Positions 8,620-26,295 of a DNA stretch of 45,739 nt are shown here, in pieces. Positions within the stretch are counted from its first letter, which is position 1. Each line of letters opens with the position of its first letter. The translations under genes were made by a program, and so were the position numbers. The notes beneath the pieces were generated by a model. That model saw only the letters and a list, made by a program, of their open reading frames with translations, did not search any database and was not told the DNA's origin. The stretch is from a virus: positions 1 through 45,739 of IMG/VR virus record IMGVR_UViG_3300035661_000111. One strand, written 5' to 3'.

Positions 8620-9323
8620 TGGCAAAAGTTCTCGGCTTAAAGCAGCTCCTACAGCGCACTTATCATTTCCTCGAAAATCTTTCGGATGAAATCGTTCACA
8701 GCTTCGGCAAGTTGACGGACAACTTTGTAATGATCATCTGGGGACAAAGCGGCAACGGTAAGAGCAACCTGATCATGCAACTGTTGAAAACCTTAATGCC
8801 TTACGGCAACGTGCTCTATGTGGGCCTGGAGGAAGGCACGGAAAGCACCATGCAGCTCACTGCACTTCGCCACCTGAATGAACAAAGCCACAACGGTAAA
8901 ATTGTTTTTGCCGATCATGAAATGACCTACGATGAGCTGATGAAGCGGCTAGCCAAAAAGAAAAGCGCACGCTTCATTGTGATCGACAGCATTCAATATT
9001 TCAACATCAGCTACGAGCAATACAAAGCCATGAAGGAAAGGTTTAAGCGCAAGAGCTTCATCTTCATCAGCCACGCCAAAGGCAAAAACCCCGACGGCCG
9101 CACCGCCGATAAAATCCGATACGATGCCGGAATAAAAATAAGAGTAGAAGGTTATGTGGGCTTCGTCATCAGTCGCTACGGAGGCAACAACCCTTACGTG
9201 ATCTGGGAAGAAGGTGCGAAGAAATATTGGGGCAAAGAGTACAGAAAAATTATCACTACACCAGCAAAACAAAAACAAGATGCCAGCACAACAGAACAAT
9301 CAACAGCCCTTACCGTCGCTTGA
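8619..9323 (+). CDS. RecA-superfamily P-loop ATPase (Sak4/RadA-like)
   Basis: This 234-residue, single-domain ATPase has Walker A GQSGNGKS at residues 42-49 and Walker B FIVIDSIQ at about 119-126, with D123. The EEGTES segment after strand 2 corresponds to the catalytic glutamate region of RecA-like cores. There is no DnaB-type N-terminal domain. Proteins of this size with only a RecA core include Sak4-type phage recombinases and RadA-like ATPases. A role in annealing or strand exchange during phage replication is plausible. The P-loop fold is certain, the subfamily is not. Confidence 0.75.
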   Translation: MAKVLGLKQLLQRTYHFLENLSDEIVHSFGKLTDNFVMIIWGQSGNGKSNLIMQLLKTLMPYGNVLYVGLEEGTESTMQLTALRHLNEQSHNGKIVFADHEMTYDELMKRLAKKKSARFIVIDSIQYFNISYEQYKAMKERFKRKSFIFISHAKGKNPDGRTADKIRYDAGIKIRVEGYVGFVISRYGGNNPYVIWEEGAKKYWGKEYRKIITTPAKQKQDASTTEQSTALTVA

Positions 9324-14825: not shown

Positions 14826-15296
14826 TTATCCAAAAATTTTGTCTAAATGATCTTCAACAAACCGATCGATCTGCGCTTCGAGCTCGTGGTTTGTCTCTCC
14901 GGGTATGGGCATGTATTGTCGCTGCGGCATCTGGAATCCTGCACCACGGCCAGCTCTCAACCCTTCGTTGTGTACCTGGCTGTAGGGCGTGTTGCTGGCG
15001 ATTACCACATCCATGCCACGGCGCTCGGCTTTGGTTTGTTCCACGAGCGCGCCGGTCTTTACCAGCAGTGCTCTACGGCCACCACGTTCCTTTCCCGGCT
15101 GCTCTTCCTTCTTCCGGCCTTTCCACTTGCTGGTGTTCCCTTCGTAGTGTTCACCCTGAAAGCTTTTGTCAACGATATCCTGTGCGGCCATCTCGGTGAA
15201 CTCCGGAAGTTGCTCGGTGGTAAATACGCGTAGCTTTTCTGCCGCGCTGCGAAAGTCACCGCCGATCGGCTGGCCGGTGTTGATGTTGCGTATCAT
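14826..15296 (-). CDS. Mu gpG-like virion morphogenesis protein
   Basis: This 156-residue protein carries ALLVKTGALVEQ, VVIASNTPYSQVHNEG and MPQRQYMPIPG, the signature of the Mu gpG / P2 gpS family: a central LxxTGxL block, the YxxxHNxG turn, then PxRxF/Y. The family acts in tail completion or head-tail joining. It overlaps the gpF-like gene upstream by 4 bp. Length agrees with Mu gpG (156). Confidence 0.8.
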   Translation of the reverse strand: MIRNINTGQPIGGDFRSAAEKLRVFTTEQLPEFTEMAAQDIVDKSFQGEHYEGNTSKWKGRKKEEQPGKERGGRRALLVKTGALVEQTKAERRGMDVVIASNTPYSQVHNEGLRAGRGAGFQMPQRQYMPIPGETNHELEAQIDRFVEDHLDKIFG

Positions 15297-16075
15297 TCCT
15301 TTACGTGTTTAGCTTCCCATTCCTTCTGCATCTTCTCGGCTTGCTGCCGAATTTTTTCTGCCTGGTCGCGTCCTACCTCTTTGATGAATGGATGTGCGTC
15401 AGTAAATACCTGGCCGGTAATGCCCACATTATTTTGAAACATTTCTTTCACGTCCGGGAATCCCTGCGGCATCACCGTGGGCGTGTCGTTGTTTCTCCAC
15501 CGGGAGTAACACCGGCAGTTCCAACCATTTGGCGGATAGTATATGGTCCAGAAATTATTAATTGAGCCGTCTTCATTGTGGATGGCCAGCACCGTGCCGT
15601 CCAGCTCGCGGTGAGCATCGCGCACGCGCCCATCGCGCTGGGTGAGGTACAGCAGCTTTCCGCCACGTGCTTCTACTGCTTTCCAGTTTTCGGCAGCGCG
15701 GCCTGCGGCGGTAGCGTAGTTGTACTCGGCCTGCAAGTAGTTTTTGTTGTACTTCTCGTTGATGCTCAGCGCATGTTTTTTAAACTCACTGAAGGGCACC
15801 GGCTTGTCGTCGGGACCGGTAAGCTCATTCACCAGTTCAATGATGTTTAAGTGGTTCTTAAAGGCCGCAAAAACATTGACGTTGGCGCGCAGCTCCAGGA
15901 TAAATTTCTCTGCCCTGGAGAACTCACCGACCGGATTGATGCCGTAGCCTTCGGCCACAGATTTCCACAGCTCGTCGGTGGTGGCTTGCCAGGTGGCTTC
16001 GTCGATGTCACCGGCCTCGATGAGTTTGTTGTACACCCGCTCGGTGACGGATGCAAAAAGCTGAGACAGATCCAC
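15293..16075 (-). CDS. Mu gpF-like minor head protein
   Basis: The protein has 260 residues from a GTG at 16075. NVFAAFKNHLNIIELVNEL, the YLQAEYNYA block, RDGRVRDAHRELDGTVL and FWTIYYPPNGWNCRCYSRW are diagnostic of the Mu F / SPP1 gp7 head morphogenesis family (DxRxR..H..LDG, PPxxWxCRC). It is a few-copy internal head protein near the portal. No ATG precedes GTG in this frame, and the frame is open back into the end of the portal gene, so the start or a frameshift fusion needs attention. Confidence 0.85.
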   Translation of the reverse strand: MDLSQLFASVTERVYNKLIEAGDIDEATWQATTDELWKSVAEGYGINPVGEFSRAEKFILELRANVNVFAAFKNHLNIIELVNELTGPDDKPVPFSEFKKHALSINEKYNKNYLQAEYNYATAAGRAAENWKAVEARGGKLLYLTQRDGRVRDAHRELDGTVLAIHNEDGSINNFWTIYYPPNGWNCRCYSRWRNNDTPTVMPQGFPDVKEMFQNNVGITGQVFTDAHPFIKEVGRDQAEKIRQQAEKMQKEWEAKHVKE

Positions 16076-16137
16076 TCCATCTTTTGCCTGAAAAGGTTCG
16101 ACTACTTTTTTGGGATACAGCTCCGCCGCTGCCTGTG

Positions 16138-17403
16138 TTATCTGAACAAGTTGCGCGGAGCTGAAGTTTTTTTTGTGAGGCCACCTCCAGCGCCTTTCAC
16201 TTTTTGTTTTGGTTTCACGGGCTTGATGGGGTTGCCCTGGTCGTCGAGTTCTTCGTCGCCATCGGGCTCGTCGTCGCCATCTTTGTCGATATCGAGATAG
16301 CGGAACTCACGATCTTTCAGCGGATAACCTTTGCCGATGAGGAAAGGAAACAGCGTCTCGTTGTTGTAGAAGGTTTCGCGCCTTTTGTTGTCCTCAATAA
16401 ACTCATCCTCGGTACGCTCATGTACCTCAGCAGCGCCAACAAATGATTTCTGATCGCTGGTACCGGTCTGGCCGTTGATGATCTTGCTGATCATCTCATC
16501 GCAGTACTTTGCTTTCTCCAGATAAATCTGGTGCGAGTCTTTCCCTTTGGATTCAAGGATGGTTACTTCATCCTGGTCGTCGATGATCACCCAAAGATTT
16601 GATCCAAACTGGCTGGCCATCTGTTCGAGCCGGTTTATCTCTTTTTGATCTTTGGTGGCTGTCTTGATCGCCAAAATCGGCATACCAAACTTTTCGCTAT
16701 GGCGGCTCCAATCGGTACGCGAATAGTTTTTCCAGATCACTTCTTTGGCTACGCTCAGCAATAATCCAAGATCGTCGTGTTCGCCTACTTCCAGCAACCA
16801 TTTGTTGAATGGAGGCTTGCGGTATGGAATACCGATGGTGTCGCCCACGTTGATCAATATCTCGCCGGTCTCCGGGCGCACGTGCTCGCGCGGGAAAAGT
16901 TTTACATCAGAAAACTCCATCGCGATACCGGGCTCTGTGCTTGGTATCATTTTGCCAAACTCAATGAGCGTGTGTCCGTAAAACGGTGTGGAGTGAAAGT
17001 GCGATCGGTAATCATGAAACCATGTCTTTTGCAGAATGCGGGTAGAAGCTTCGTCTATTTCTTCCGACCCTTTTTTGAACACGGCAAAAGGAGAGCCAAC
17101 CGTTTTGAGAATGTTATTGCGGATGGCGCTGCGTGTATGTGACTCACGAACCGCCTGCCGGTAGATTTCATAGAGCAGCCACCGGTTTGGAAACTCGGGA
17201 TTTTCTGCGGCCATGATAGCCATCTTCAATTCATCCTGCTGCATCTGCGCCACGAATACCCTTCGCGCCGTGATGTCGAAGCTCAGGCGCTTGCCGTCAT
17301 CATTGAAATACTTTTTGGCTTTGCCTTCAATGGCACTGTTCATGATGGCGTTTCGTATCCCCTCAGGGAGCGCGTTGATCACGCGGGTTAATCCAAATTT
17401 CAT
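16138..17403 (-). CDS. Mu Gp29-like portal protein (DUF935)
   Basis: This 421-residue protein is somewhat shorter than Mu Gp29 (512). It forms the dodecameric channel for DNA packaging. Characteristic stretches include AIMAAENPEFPNRWLLYEIY, RNNILKTVGSPFAVFKKGS, the KEVIWKNYSRTDW block, FGMPILAIKTATKDQKEINR and KIINGQTGTSDQKSFVGAAEVH. The C-terminus is acidic then Lys/Gly-rich. A run of eight A residues (sense strand, complement of 16167..16174) precedes the stop by about 30 bases and offers a -1 slip into the open gpF frame. Confidence 0.88.
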   Translation of the reverse strand: MKFGLTRVINALPEGIRNAIMNSAIEGKAKKYFNDDGKRLSFDITARRVFVAQMQQDELKMAIMAAENPEFPNRWLLYEIYRQAVRESHTRSAIRNNILKTVGSPFAVFKKGSEEIDEASTRILQKTWFHDYRSHFHSTPFYGHTLIEFGKMIPSTEPGIAMEFSDVKLFPREHVRPETGEILINVGDTIGIPYRKPPFNKWLLEVGEHDDLGLLLSVAKEVIWKNYSRTDWSRHSEKFGMPILAIKTATKDQKEINRLEQMASQFGSNLWVIIDDQDEVTILESKGKDSHQIYLEKAKYCDEMISKIINGQTGTSDQKSFVGAAEVHERTEDEFIEDNKRRETFYNNETLFPFLIGKGYPLKDREFRYLDIDKDGDDEPDGDEELDDQGNPIKPVKPKQKVKGAGGGLTKKTSAPRNLFR

Positions 17404-17415
17404 AAGAGTAAATTT

Positions 17416-17886
17416 TTAAGCTCCGAATTTGTTGATGTTGATAAAGCCATCTCCTTGCGAGCGCACAGGCTGACTTCCCCAACGTGTTTTTGTGAGCGGC
17501 TCTGCATTGCCATCTGTGTCAGACTCCTGAAGCTGCGCGAGTGTGCAGTTCATTTTGCCGTCGCTGATCTTGTTGAGCATCTCCATCGTGTCGTCATAGT
17601 TTTTGATCACACGCTCCGGCACAAGTGCGTCCGGGATACGCTCGTAGAGATAGTACAGCACCAGGCACTTCACCCAGCGCAGCAATGCCTGATTGCGATT
17701 AGCTCCGGTTTTAGCAAACTCAAGATTCATGTCGTAGCGTCCGCTAAGAAACTCCTGAACTTGTCCGAGCGCTTCGGTTTCAGCCGCGTCGATCGTAGCG
17801 TCGGAAGCTTCGGTAATCTGGTCGAGCTTGTAGGTCTTGATCTGATACAAGTAATCAGCCTTGGTGATAAAATCGGATAGAGCCAT
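17416..17886 (-). CDS. Mu Gp36-like head-tail protein (DUF1320)
   Basis: This 156-residue protein has ALSDFITKADYLYQI at the start, then EALGQVQEFLSGRYDMN, LLRWVKCLVLYYLYERIPD and VIKNYDDTMEMLNKISDGKM, which are the conserved helices of the DUF1320/Gp36 family, counterparts of head-tail adaptor proteins. It lies between TerL and portal, a modified order relative to Mu, where Gp36 follows the capsid gene. Confidence 0.82.
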   Translation of the reverse strand: MALSDFITKADYLYQIKTYKLDQITEASDATIDAAETEALGQVQEFLSGRYDMNLEFAKTGANRNQALLRWVKCLVLYYLYERIPDALVPERVIKNYDDTMEMLNKISDGKMNCTLAQLQESDTDGNAEPLTKTRWGSQPVRSQGDGFININKFGA

Positions 17887-17889
17887 ATT

Positions 17890-18015
17890 TCAATTAAGGT
17901 TAAAGGTGAATGCATAAATATCTTTACCATCGGAGAGCACAAGAACATTGGAAGCGTTGCGTACTTCATCGTACTTAACTTCGACGAAGCAAACGAAGTG
18001 CAATTTGTTGGGCAT
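17890..18015 (-). CDS. Small unknown protein, 41 residues
   Basis: ATG (complement of 18013..18015) to TGA encodes a peptide with alternating beta-like residues (LHFVCFVEVKYDEV, SNVLVLSDGKDIYAFTFNLN). It fits exactly between TerL and the Gp36-like gene with 8- and 3-bp gaps, which supports coding. Function is unknown. Confidence 0.5.
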   Translation of the reverse strand: MPNKLHFVCFVEVKYDEVRNASNVLVLSDGKDIYAFTFNLN

Positions 18016-18023
18016 AGTTTCAA

Positions 18024-19631
18024 TCATCCCTGGCGTGCGCTGGAGTGTTTGTATTTACCCATCATTTGCCCGGCCGGGCGATCGTCCGATCGGCGATTGG
18101 TTTTCGTCAGCAAATAGATTGCTCCTTCCACGGCATCAGGCCCATCATCGTGGCCGTTGGGGAAGGCAAGGAACTGTTCTCGCAGGGTGATCATGTCGCT
18201 ATTCTTCTGCAACTTTTTATTGAAAACAATCAGTCCACGCTCAGCCAGTGGAGACAGGTCTTCAATGCGGCCAAACTTATCGGGCTTGGCGCGCTTGTCT
18301 GCCCGAAGGCGCAACAGCTTGCCACGGCTTTCGCCTTCGCTGTCGTACTCGCTCATATACAATTCTTCCTGAAGAAAATTCGCCTCCAGGTAATGTGGAC
18401 AAATCACCTCTCGGTGACCGGGTTTTAAGCCGGGTACGAATGACCTTTTGCGGATGGCTTCATCAATGTCGTAATGAGCCGATACCATCGCCACACGGCT
18501 TGCCTGACGCACCCACGCCCAGATGATGTGATAGTACTTGCCTTTTCGGCCAACGAGCACAATGGCCTTAAAATCGTTTTTCTTGGCCCCCTTGTAACTT
18601 GGGTCATTGTACGTGATGAGCTGATCGTATTCATCGAGCGGCAGTACATCATCCCACGGCAAGTGTTCCTCACGGAATATGTCACCGTCTTCAATGTGCT
18701 GGTGATAGAACTGCCTGCGCGAGCTGCGGTAGCCCATCTCCAAAATACGCGCCTGAATATTTTCAACGGTGTAGCGTGGCCATGCCGGTACACCTCCGTT
18801 TTCGATGAGCAACATCTTGTGCGTGACCGGGTCTTCGGTAGCGAAAACTTTGATGTGCACAATGCCCGGCCGTATCGGGTCGCCCTCTTTCACATCTCCG
18901 GCAAAGTGTGCGGTAAGGTCGTTCTTTGCCGTACGGTTGTTGGCAAAGACCAGGCGTTTGCCTTTGATACTCAAACACCCCAAGAACTCTCCGTTAACCC
19001 AATCCAAATCTTGCTTAACGAGCTCTTGATTCTTCGCTCGCTTCTTCGATGCGGCATCATCCACCACACCGTAGTTTGGTCTGCGGCCTGCGTTGCGCAC
19101 ACCGGCAGGGTTTTGACCAATACCAAAAGACCAGAAGCCAATGCCATCGGCTGTAATGAAACTGCCGTCGCTCCAGCTGCCTATAGTGCGCTGCTCACCA
19201 AAGTCGTTGATGTATGCTTTATTGTTCATCAACTCTGCCTGCACATCACCGATCAGCTTGGCTGCTTTGGCTTCTGTTTCGCTGGCGAGTATCATGCCAT
19301 CGAGCTGACCGGTGGCTTTCAACCAGAGCGGAATAAACACATCGGCAAACACGGACTTGGCATGCTCACGCGCCCACTCGAGCAGCACGGTGACGTTTTC
19401 TTTGCTAAGAATTTCGTTGGCTGCTTTTTTATGAAACCAACCAAACTTAGAGTCGATGTAGTGCGGGAAATAATATTGGCAGAACTTCTCGAAGTTACGA
19501 ATCAACAACAGCTCGCTGATGCGCTGGCGTTTTTGCTCCGGTGTTTCATCCCGAATAGGTGTAGTTTGCTTTTTTATGCGACTGCATAATTCAAGCCAAT
19601 CCTGATAGACTTTATCATCAATCCTTGCCAT
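18024..19631 (-). CDS. Terminase large subunit (Mu Gp28-like)
   Basis: This 535-residue protein is the ATPase/nuclease motor for headful DNA packaging. A variant Walker A lies at about 86-93 (WAREHAKS) and Walker B at about 187-192 (NYGVVDD). The C-terminal RNase H-like nuclease begins with LITYNDPSYKG, followed by DFKAIVLVGRKGKYYHII, and a late acidic segment PNGHDDGPDAVEGAIYLL that completes the metal site. The length matches the family. It overlaps the small subunit by one base. Confidence 0.9.
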   Translation of the reverse strand: MARIDDKVYQDWLELCSRIKKQTTPIRDETPEQKRQRISELLLIRNFEKFCQYYFPHYIDSKFGWFHKKAANEILSKENVTVLLEWAREHAKSVFADVFIPLWLKATGQLDGMILASETEAKAAKLIGDVQAELMNNKAYINDFGEQRTIGSWSDGSFITADGIGFWSFGIGQNPAGVRNAGRRPNYGVVDDAASKKRAKNQELVKQDLDWVNGEFLGCLSIKGKRLVFANNRTAKNDLTAHFAGDVKEGDPIRPGIVHIKVFATEDPVTHKMLLIENGGVPAWPRYTVENIQARILEMGYRSSRRQFYHQHIEDGDIFREEHLPWDDVLPLDEYDQLITYNDPSYKGAKKNDFKAIVLVGRKGKYYHIIWAWVRQASRVAMVSAHYDIDEAIRKRSFVPGLKPGHREVICPHYLEANFLQEELYMSEYDSEGESRGKLLRLRADKRAKPDKFGRIEDLSPLAERGLIVFNKKLQKNSDMITLREQFLAFPNGHDDGPDAVEGAIYLLTKTNRRSDDRPAGQMMGKYKHSSARQG

Positions 19632-20098
19632 TACAACTCAGCGCGTTTGATGTTGAGATAATCGTCGGCTTTGGGAATGAGATTTTTAGCGAGCTCCAGA
19701 TCGGCCACCTGCACGTAGTCGATGAATTCTTTCATGATGTTCACCACGGTAGCCCACTCTAATTGTTTGCTCTTAATGGTGGTGAATAATTTTTGAAGTG
19801 CGTCGATATCACCTTTGTCGAGGAGTGTGAGTGACTCTGTTTCTTTCTTTTTGAACTTCTCCTCATATTGATCCTTGCGCATTTTGAGCGCGCGTGTCTG
19901 GTAGTTGATCAACTCCCACACGTCGTCTTCAGCTACTTCGCGGCTCATGTTTTTCTTGGCGCGCTTTTCTTTCCAGTTGTATTTGGTAGCCCAGGAGGAA
20001 ATTGATTTCTCAGATACATCGAGCACACGAGCGATGCTCTTCTGATCGAAGCCGGCGTCGAATAATTCTTTCGCAGCTTCTTTTTTATCATTCATCAT
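19631..20098 (-). CDS. Terminase small subunit-like HTH protein
   Basis: This 155-residue protein has an N-terminal helix-turn-helix (AKELFDAGFDQKSIARVLDV, SEKSISSWATKYNW) of the kind found in phage terminase small subunits, and a helical oligomerisation region after residue 50. As the first gene of the leftward operon, directly before TerL, it likely recognises phage DNA for packaging. Confidence 0.75.
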   Translation of the reverse strand: MMNDKKEAAKELFDAGFDQKSIARVLDVSEKSISSWATKYNWKEKRAKKNMSREVAEDDVWELINYQTRALKMRKDQYEEKFKKKETESLTLLDKGDIDALQKLFTTIKSKQLEWATVVNIMKEFIDYVQVADLELAKNLIPKADDYLNIKRAEL

Positions 20099-22942: not shown

Positions 22943-23122
22943 ATGAGTCATATCCAAAACAACGCTGAAGGAATCTTAGGCGGTTCCATCGGCACGATCG
23001 TCGCGAGTGTATTCGGGGTAAGCTTCCTGGACAATCTCGTTCAGACGATCATCATGGCAGTAGTAGGAGCAGTAATCGGATTTTTCACCAACAAGCTTTT
23101 GAAATCGATATGGAAAAAATAA
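22943..23122 (+). CDS. Holin candidate, small membrane protein
   Basis: The ATG at 22943, after GAAAGGA, gives 59 residues. Two adjacent hydrophobic stretches (ILGGSIGTIVASVFGVSFL and IIMAVVGAVIGFFTNKLL) separated by a short polar part, and a basic end (KSIWKK), match small holins. It opens the lysis gene cluster and overlaps the next membrane gene by 13 bp. Confidence 0.55.
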   Translation: MSHIQNNAEGILGGSIGTIVASVFGVSFLDNLVQTIIMAVVGAVIGFFTNKLLKSIWKK

Positions 23123-23481
23123 AGAACCTTTTCTCCCTGGTGATTAAATTTTTTCAGACCTGGAATGAGTTGATCCTCGGCCCGGTGTCGATTGTTTTGT
23201 GGGTGATCTCGATCGTCGTGATTCACTTCCTCGACCAGACCGCCGCCACCTATGATGTGGCCGTGTTTCAAAAAATCATCTTTGCTCTCACTGCGTTCTG
23301 TGCCTTCAGCTTCAGCGCATGGCTCTTGTGCCGGGTACAGTTCCCTAAAGTATTTCAGTTTCTATCTGAAAGTTTCGATTCTAATTTTTCAACCCTAACC
23401 CCCCTACAACAATGCGTAATTTCATTGTGTGTCTTGGCCTATTATTTATTGGGCTTGGCACTCTGCGGGCTGATCCTGTAG
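23110..23481 (+). CDS. Membrane protein of the lysis cluster
   Basis: This 123-residue protein has three hydrophobic segments: about 24-41 (GPVSIVLWVISIVVIHFL), 55-73 (IIFALTAFCAFSFSAWLL) and 103-122. The last 70 bp overlap the endolysin gene in another frame. It could be the holin, with the preceding short protein an antiholin, or the reverse. Confidence 0.55.
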   Translation: MEKIKNLFSLVIKFFQTWNELILGPVSIVLWVISIVVIHFLDQTAATYDVAVFQKIIFALTAFCAFSFSAWLLCRVQFPKVFQFLSESFDSNFSTLTPLQQCVISLCVLAYYLLGLALCGLIL

Positions 23482-23966
23482 ATCAGTCAACGCGCGACCG
23501 AAAGGTCATCATCGAAAAAGTTTCTGCGGTCTACACCTCACAGCTCGGCGTGCGCGAAGCCACCGGCCACAACGATGGTGTGCAAGTGGAAGCTTACCTG
23601 AAGACCTGCGGCTTTACCAAAGGCGCTGCCTGGTGTGCATCCTTCGTCACCTGGACATTCATTCAGGCTGAGGTGCCTGCACTCAAGAGTGCGTGGGCTC
23701 CCAGTTGGTTTCCACCAAACAAAGTAATCTACTCGAAAGGAAACCCGCATAACAAGCTGCCTGAAAAGTGCGATGTAGCCGGAATCTTCTACAGTAACAA
23801 AGGAATTATCGGCCATGTATTTTTTGTGGATGAGTGGCCACCGAATGACGAATACGTGATCACTGTGGAAGGCAATACCAACAATGCGGGAAGCTCGGAA
23901 GGTGATGGCGTGTATCGCAAGCGAAGGTTGAAACAAAATATTTATAAGGTAAGTCGCTGGGTTTAG
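23412..23966 (+). CDS. Secreted endolysin, CHAP/NlpC-like cysteine amidase
   Basis: This 184-residue protein starts with an N-terminal signal sequence (NFIVCLGLLFIGLGTLRA), so export could be Sec-dependent. The catalytic domain has GAAWCASFVTWTF (C75), GIIGHVFFVDEW (H135) and ITVEGNTN (E153/N155), the Cys-His-Glu/Asn arrangement of CHAP amidase/endopeptidases; LGVREATGHNDGVQVEAYL precedes the Cys. It degrades peptidoglycan at lysis. Confidence 0.8.
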   Translation: MRNFIVCLGLLFIGLGTLRADPVDQSTRDRKVIIEKVSAVYTSQLGVREATGHNDGVQVEAYLKTCGFTKGAAWCASFVTWTFIQAEVPALKSAWAPSWFPPNKVIYSKGNPHNKLPEKCDVAGIFYSNKGIIGHVFFVDEWPPNDEYVITVEGNTNNAGSSEGDGVYRKRRLKQNIYKVSRWV

Positions 23967-23992: not shown

Positions 23993-24066
23993 CGCGAGGT
24001 GGAGAAGATGGTTATCTCGCCAGGCTCATAACCTGGAGGCCGCGGGTTCAAGTCCCGCTCTCGCTA
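23993..24066 (+). tRNA. Initiator-type tRNA-Met (CAU)
   Basis: A full cloverleaf can be drawn. Acceptor strands CGCGAGG and TCTCGCT pair except at 1-72 (C/U). The D stem is GAGA/TCTC, the anticodon stem CCAGG/CCTGG with loop CTCATAA (anticodon CAT), the variable loop AGGCC, the T stem GCGGG/CCCGC with TTCAAGT, and the discriminator A. The unpaired 1-72 and the A11:U24 pair are initiator hallmarks, and the 5' half closely follows bacterial tRNA-fMet. One of the three initiator G-C pairs is A29:U41. CCA is not encoded. It lies between endolysin and spanin genes. Confidence 0.85.
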
Positions 24067-24092
24067 CAAAAATTTTTAACCAGCAAAAACTA

Positions 24093-24602
24093 ATGCTCCG
24101 CAAGCTTTCCATATTGATCCTCTCCATTTTCTGTTTGTGCCTCCTGTTGCTGGTGGTTGGGTGTAGCCGCAAGGTTATGCCCTCCACCACAATAGTGGTG
24201 AAGGACAGCGTGATTGAGAAGACGGTGGAGAAGATCGTTCACCTGAAAGGCGATACAATCCTGATCGAAAAGAAAATTGAATGCGATCCAAAAACCTTGC
24301 AAGCCAAACCATTTGAAGAAAAAATATCAAGAGGCATACAACGCCTTGATGTGAAAGTCGATCAGGGAAAATTAACCGTGCAGACCGACTGCGATAGTCT
24401 TCTTAAAATCCAAAATACCATCATTCAAAAGATGCACAGCGAGAGCGAGAAAGAAGTGAAGCCGGTGATTATTCACGAAGCCTATTGGTACGATAAATAC
24501 ATCGCGAGGCCTCTGGCTTTTCTGTTTCTCCTGGTCGCGGCATTTGTTGCCGGAAAAATCTATTTAAAAACCATCAACCCCTCAACCCTTTTAAAATCAT
24601 GA
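24093..24602 (+). CDS. Unimolecular spanin-like lipoprotein
   Basis: This 169-residue protein has an N-terminal lipoprotein signal with lipobox LVVGC (C24). A periplasmic region rich in charged and beta-like segments (SVIEKTVEKIVHLKGDTILI) follows, and a C-terminal transmembrane helix (about 141-159, PLAFLFLLVAAFVAGKIYL). An outer-membrane lipid anchor plus an inner-membrane helix in one chain is the u-spanin architecture, which fuses the membranes at lysis. Location behind the endolysin supports this. Confidence 0.65.
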   Translation: MLRKLSILILSIFCLCLLLLVVGCSRKVMPSTTIVVKDSVIEKTVEKIVHLKGDTILIEKKIECDPKTLQAKPFEEKISRGIQRLDVKVDQGKLTVQTDCDSLLKIQNTIIQKMHSESEKEVKPVIIHEAYWYDKYIARPLAFLFLLVAAFVAGKIYLKTINPSTLLKS

Positions 24603-25083: not shown

Positions 25084-26295
25084 ATGGGATTGCCAAAAGT
25101 AAACATCATCATCAGAAATGGAGGATTAGGCCTCACCGCGGGTACTGATGACCAGGTATGCGGATTGATCATTCAATCGCCGGTTGCACCTGCGGGCCTT
25201 GCGCTGGCTACGCCCGTTCAGATTTTTAGCGTGACGGATGCCGTCGCGCTTGGAATTACTGCCGCTTACGACAGCACCAACAGCACTAATGTTTACAAAC
25301 AGATCAGCGACTTCTACGCTACGGCAGGCCAGGGAAAAGAACTGTGGATCATGATCCTGGTAAATACCACGCTGATGACCACGCTGCTGGATATCACACA
25401 AACCACGATGGCGTATGCGCTGATCAATGCCGCTAACGGACGGATCAAAATGCTTGGCGTAAGCCGCAAGCCTGCCGTGAGCTACACACCTACCTATACC
25501 GGTCAGCTCGATGCTGATGTGACCAATGCAATGGTAAAGGCACAAGCTTTGGGCGATGGTTTTGCTGCGCTCTACAAGCCTTTCCGTGTATTGATCGATG
25601 GCCGCGATTTTCAAGGTACGCTCGCCAGCTTGGCGGACTTGCGAACTTTTACATACAACCGTGTATCTGTTGTACTTGGCGCTGACACCGTAAGCACAAA
25701 AGAAAGTATGGTAGGAAGAGCGCTCGGCAAATTTGCGGCCGGGCCGGTGCAACGAAATATAGGCCGCGTAAAAGACGGCGATATCGGTATTTCCTCTGCC
25801 TTCTTCAATGGCACAACGCTGCTCACGGATATCAAGGACATTGCCCCTGCATCGCTGGACAACGTGAACGACTACGGATACATTTTCCCGCGCAAAATCA
25901 TTGGCCTATCCGGATACTTCTTCAACGACGATCCCACGGCGTCGCTTGCTACCGATGACTTTCACCAGGTATCGAGAGGCCGAATCATCGACAAGGCCAC
26001 AGTGATTGCCTACACCACCTTTGTGACCGAGTTGAGCGACGACCTGGACGTGGACTCCTCCGGCAAGATCGCTCCGGCCACGGCCAAGTATTACCAGGGC
26101 AAGATTGAAACAGCGCTGCGCAATGCCTTCTTCGGTGGCTCGTATGGCCCTGAGGTGAGTAGCATAAAAGTAGTGGTCGATCCAAACCAGAATATCATTA
26201 CTACCAACAAAGTGGCAGTAACGGTTTATATCCAACCAAAAGCTTACAGCAAGACTATTGAGGTGAGCCTTGGGCTTACTGCTGTGACAGGATAA
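25084..26295 (+). CDS. Contractile tail sheath protein (DUF2586 type)
   Basis: This 403-residue protein starts GLPKVNIIIRNGGLGLT and contains QISDFYATAGQGKELWIMIL, FRVLIDGRDFQGT and a C-terminal domain with RGRIIDKATVIAYTTFVTEL and IETALRNAFFGG, typical of compact sheath proteins of Bacteroidota myophages. It defines the virion as contractile-tailed. The tube gene follows, as usual. Confidence 0.82.
   Translation: MGLPKVNIIIRNGGLGLTAGTDDQVCGLIIQSPVAPAGLALATPVQIFSVTDAVALGITAAYDSTNSTNVYKQISDFYATAGQGKELWIMILVNTTLMTTLLDITQTTMAYALINAANGRIKMLGVSRKPAVSYTPTYTGQLDADVTNAMVKAQALGDGFAALYKPFRVLIDGRDFQGTLASLADLRTFTYNRVSVVLGADTVSTKESMVGRALGKFAAGPVQRNIGRVKDGDIGISSAFFNGTTLLTDIKDIAPASLDNVNDYGYIFPRKIIGLSGYFFNDDPTASLATDDFHQVSRGRIIDKATVIAYTTFVTELSDDLDVDSSGKIAPATAKYYQGKIETALRNAFFGGSYGPEVSSIKVVVDPNQNIITTNKVAVTVYIQPKAYSKTIEVSLGLTAVTG

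Follow-up and report, generated by a model that had tools for sequence, protein, structure and literature searches.

What does an initiator-type tRNA gene do in the middle of the lysis genes of a Mu-like phage? The window, which is the whole stretch of DNA that was analysed, spans 45,739 bases; it corresponds to a complete virus record of IMG/VR and consists of the virus contig alone. The virus is Mu-like, as the sequence-only reading had proposed. It encodes the C-terminal domain of a Mu-type transposase (Mu-transpos_C, 1.6e-6) followed by an AAA protein, a portal protein (Portal_Mu, 1.9e-52), protein F (Phage_Mu_F, 8.7e-11), and an I-like protease (Mu-like_Pro, 4.5e-6). A major head protein and a DUF2586 tail protein are also encoded. 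The terminase, portal, and F genes lie on the minus strand (15293-20098); the protease, head, lysis, and tail genes lie on the plus strand (20194-40543). L021 and L037 are among the relatives that show a similar opposite-strand split. The host is probably a member of the Bacteroidota. No close prophage was found in the sampled genomes, where the best match had about 40% identity.

The features around the tRNA gene are listed in the table. The tRNA shares its strand with the late genes. A CHAP endolysin gene precedes it and a spanin-like lipoprotein gene follows it, which agrees with its earlier placement inside a lysis cluster. The lipoprotein has a lipobox (..VVGC..) near its N terminus and a hydrophobic C-terminal stretch, a layout that suggests a one-protein spanin. 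It has no Pfam or PHROG match, and a single-sequence search for its relatives found none. The candidate holin also lacks a family match in Pfam and PHROG.

Table. Positions of the tRNA gene and its neighbours in the window.
Feature	Position	Strand	Evidence
Small membrane protein, candidate holin	23110..23481	+	Hydrophobic translation and position; putative role
CHAP-domain endolysin gene, directly upstream of the tRNA	23412..23966	+	Pfam PF05257 at its cut-off; PHROG endolysin, 9.7e-18
Initiator-type tRNA gene, tRNA-fMet(CAU), no encoded CCA	23993..24066	+	ARAGORN; Rfam RF00005; same-place conservation in L013/L142 and L014/L143; compensatory pairs
A29:U41 pair, adjoining G30:C40 and G31:C39	24022 (A), 24034 (U)	+	Sequence; Rfam alignment
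Anticodon CAU within the loop CUCAUAA	24027..24029	+	ARAGORN (anticodon at gene position 35); sequence
Spanin-like lipoprotein gene, directly downstream of the tRNA	24093..24602	+	Translation read; putative role
DUF2586 tail protein, phage-group marker	25084..26295	+	Pfam PF10758, 4.6e-54

The window tRNA is a real tRNA gene, and the only one in the record. ARAGORN called a tRNA-Met(CAU) at 23993-24067. The Rfam model RF00005 matched 23993-24066 over its full length (model positions 1-71 of 71) with 58.8 bits, against a gathering cut-off of 29 bits. Every stem pair is formed except 1·72, and the cloverleaf is the minimum-free-energy fold. The folding energy of the single sequence does not go beyond that of shuffled sequences (z -0.83). 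A chance origin is excluded by the covariance-model score together with the compensatory changes across relatives described below. The intact stems, the score, and these changes also rule out a pseudogene, which was one of the two ways in which the sequence-only reading could have failed.

The marks of an initiator were read directly. The gene has a C1·U72 mismatch, A73, the acceptor pairs G2:C71 and C3:G70, and the D-stem pair A11:U24. There is a C at position 74, but the gene does not encode the CCA end. The 1·72 mismatch, G2:C71, C3:G70, and A11:U24 are the features named for formylation, and the three GC pairs of the anticodon stem serve passage to the 70S complex (PMC7949028). Two of these three GC pairs are present (G30:C40 and G31:C39), and 29:41 is A:U. 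The window tRNA is thus of the initiator type, and its charging, formylation, and P-site use are predicted from these marks; its position and its marks had both been given correctly before. Bacteroidota chromosomal tRNA-fMet genes likewise have C1·U72, A11:U24, and the loop CUCAUAA, mostly without an encoded CCA. The anticodon stems differ: CCAGG/CCUGG in the window versus UCGGG/CCCGA in the chromosomal genes. The window tRNA is 73-81% identical to three chromosomal initiators.

The A29:U41 pair had been singled out as a departure from the usual initiator. It does differ from the Bacteroidota chromosomal initiators, since G29:C41 was found in 87 and A29:U41 in two of 89 tRNA copies, a sample that favours strong matches to our own model and includes some repeated loci. 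It is no anomaly. A29:U41 within initiator-type arms was found in at least 120 viral-contig stretches, by a pattern search that demanded this pair and shows the variant to be common rather than giving its frequency; many of these stretches have arms of other bacterial types. Because it is common among initiator tRNAs on viral contigs, A29:U41 is no sign of a pseudogene. A defect was ruled out, as the pair is a natural variant of viral contigs and of two of the 89 Bacteroidota copies.

Judged by the tail protein, the nearest relatives are L013/L142 and L014/L143 (75-77% identity), and both have an initiator tRNA in the matching position. A phylogenetic tree groups the window with L142 and L143 in a fully supported clade. 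Computed over all alignment columns, the identity in the comparison with these relatives is 82-85% for the tRNA, 58-72% for the downstream gene, and 40-62% for the upstream spacer. A more distant relative, L149 (tail protein 46%), has an initiator-bodied tRNA at the matching place (8685-8757). Among the four same-place sequences, 96% of the cells are paired and five pairs changed on both sides; pair 13:22, for example, is A:U, C:G, or U:A. None of 500 shuffles reached as high a score for pairing and compensatory change, and no slid version was as good. The five compensatory pairs show that the tRNA structure is under selection. A11:U24 is invariant in all four, and all three CAU copies keep C1·U72 or C1·A72, G2:C71, and C3:G70. 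Two observations count against a functional reading: the L014 tRNA retains only one of the three GC pairs (A29:U41 and A31:U39), and the L013 and L014 tRNAs both have a C5·U68 mismatch. A host fragment, the second possible failure of the earlier proposal, or an assembly join was ruled out, because two relatives have the tRNA in this position although their flanks have diverged. An ORF of 81 amino acids lies directly after the tRNA in L013 (4688-4933) and L014 (4826-5071). It is 83% identical between the two; neither the window nor any other locus compared has it.

It is very improbable that the tRNA is a passive hitch-hiker, a recently acquired host or phage initiator tRNA that brings no benefit: a single tRNA, a patchy distribution, a moron-like place between conserved genes, and a decayed-looking L149 copy would all fit, but the compensatory changes and the conservation above the flanking spacers largely contradict it.

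tRNAs are rare in such phages, in agreement with the sequence-only reading. In a wider survey of about 114 related records with a tail gene and limited flanks, they were found in six (L142, L143, L149, L360, L225/L416, and L353), and most relatives had no tRNA. A covariance-model search for hidden tRNA remnants in the other relatives found none beyond the known tRNAs. The related Mu-like phage L360 has an initiator-type tRNA (691-763) after the head-protein gene; its three GC pairs are intact, and its loop, UUCAUGU, is changed on both sides of the anticodon. L225 (3268-3341) and L416 (3591-3664) have a CAU tRNA after the tail genes, in a Mu-like tail region on a bacterial contig. This tRNA has a U1·U72 mismatch, an initiator-like acceptor stem, and an elongator-like D arm. 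The L353 tRNA is probably a tRNA-Gln. In L037, which was found through its tRNA, an initiator lies between the terminase and protease genes. Initiator or CAU tRNAs thus recur at several places in this phage group, always on the late strand, in small numbers. Strong hairpins adjoin the tRNAs of several relatives, upstream in L013 (4571-4594) and L149 (8651-8674) and downstream in L360 (787-822) and L416 (3687-3722), whereas no strong hairpin lies beside the window tRNA. In Pinibacter soli, L310 (G001:C11:2087280-2087960) contains several lower-scoring tRNA genes in a tight array.

From its sequence features, this is probably a cargo ('moron') gene that a Mu-like Bacteroidota phage carries within its late operon and that encodes a functional initiator tRNA. 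A scan around it found no convincing promoter or terminator; with its alignment to the late genes, this suggests that the tRNA is most simply made within the late transcript. It would be transcribed together with the lysis genes and excised by the host RNase P and a 3'-end nuclease. A host enzyme would then add CCA, MetRS would charge the tRNA, and formylation and use in the P site would follow. The most likely effect would be a larger or better protected supply of initiator tRNA in late infection. In related genomes, one to three strong matches to the initiator model were found, so a replicating phage would greatly raise the gene dose, and late in infection the phage copies might far exceed the one to three initiator genes of the host. 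A shift in start-codon choice, which had also been suggested, found no support: the anticodon is unchanged, 53 of the 69 non-overlapping ORFs start with ATG, and several of the others look spurious.

Counter-defence is the first alternative, and an unlikely one. The phage tRNA might replace a host initiator tRNA that a nuclease has cut, for example a VapC toxin or a CRISPR effector that cleaves tRNA; under this explanation, A29:U41 in place of the host G29:C41 may lower recognition by the nuclease. VapC toxins of several bacteria cut the initiator tRNA between the anticodon stem and loop, and growth under VapC is partly rescued by extra initiator genes (PMC8522696), which makes replacement of the cleaved tRNA a real alternative. 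Nuclease evasion by phage tRNAs has already been proposed, with anticodon-loop mutations as its signature (PMC10264068). The altered loop of L360 beside the anticodon fits this proposal; the loop of the window does not, since the sampled Bacteroidota chromosomal initiators have exactly the same loop, and the published signature is therefore absent. A29:U41 occurs in all four same-place copies (the window, L013, L014, and L149), against its rarity on the chromosomes, which would suit counter-defence, but initiator tRNAs elsewhere on viral contigs commonly have it as well. Moreover, where VapC cuts the anticodon, phages mostly avoid tRNA-fMet (PMC10264068).

A different role is raised by L149. 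Its anticodon loop is CAAAAAA, which ARAGORN reads as Phe(AAA), and its stems are paired except 1·72 and 6·67. L149 lies on the same contig as L334, L411, and L426, and a search of further viral contigs for loops of the CAAAAAA type found them in this contig only. In the tree, L149 is placed beside tRNA-free relatives with a support of 56. As this position is weak, either a single gain of the tRNA with a loss in the sister group or two gains at one place may have occurred. Given a body without CAU, at least one lineage may be able to do without decoding. The initiator-tRNA body might then have a second, non-decoding role, in mRNA cutting or as a decoy for a factor that binds or cuts initiators, which would account for the body and place kept by L149 despite its loop; this role is considered quite doubtful.

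It is similarly improbable that the main function of the tRNA is to mark a cutting point in the late mRNA, at which RNase P and a 3'-end nuclease would separate the endolysin and spanin messages and the anticodon would be irrelevant. Besides the L149 copy, this explanation is consistent with the next start codon, which lies 12-36 nt after the tRNA in all four copies, and with the orientation of the tRNA, which is always sense to the late genes. However, CAU and the initiator-only marks, which are unneeded for cutting, are kept in three of the four copies; the lysis clusters of the relatives L327 and L367 work without any tRNA; and the L149-type loop is confined to one viral contig. A working initiator tRNA is the reading we prefer.

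The reason why phages carry tRNAs is still debated. An initiator tRNA serves start codons only, so codon compensation is no explanation here. With codon compensation excluded, small phages that carry only an initiator make it possible to distinguish cleanly between more initiation, a replacement for cleaved host tRNA, and a role in RNA processing. Should nuclease cutting prove to depend on A29:U41 or on the L149 loop, phage tRNA carriage would be tied directly to defence. A search of one collection of papers for Mu-like Bacteroidetes phages with a tRNA-Met found none, which is weak evidence of novelty.

Phage-encoded initiator tRNAs are already known, and the window gene is a well-preserved, mostly ordinary example. 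A tRNA-Met with the initiator layout is annotated in Cellulophaga, Caulobacter, and mycobacterial phages, and unannotated matches were found in Lak phages. Like the window, the Cellulophaga phage phi4:1 and the Prevotella Lak phages represent Bacteroidota phages with an initiator-type tRNA(CAU), and that of phi4:1 also has A29:U41. These are large lytic phages of 145-550 kb with multi-tRNA clusters, whereas the window has a single tRNA in a Mu-like lysis region. The phage tRNAs of PMC10264068 are, like the window gene, phage copies of a tRNA that host nucleases cut; they carry a change in the anticodon loop, whereas the window copy has an unchanged loop.
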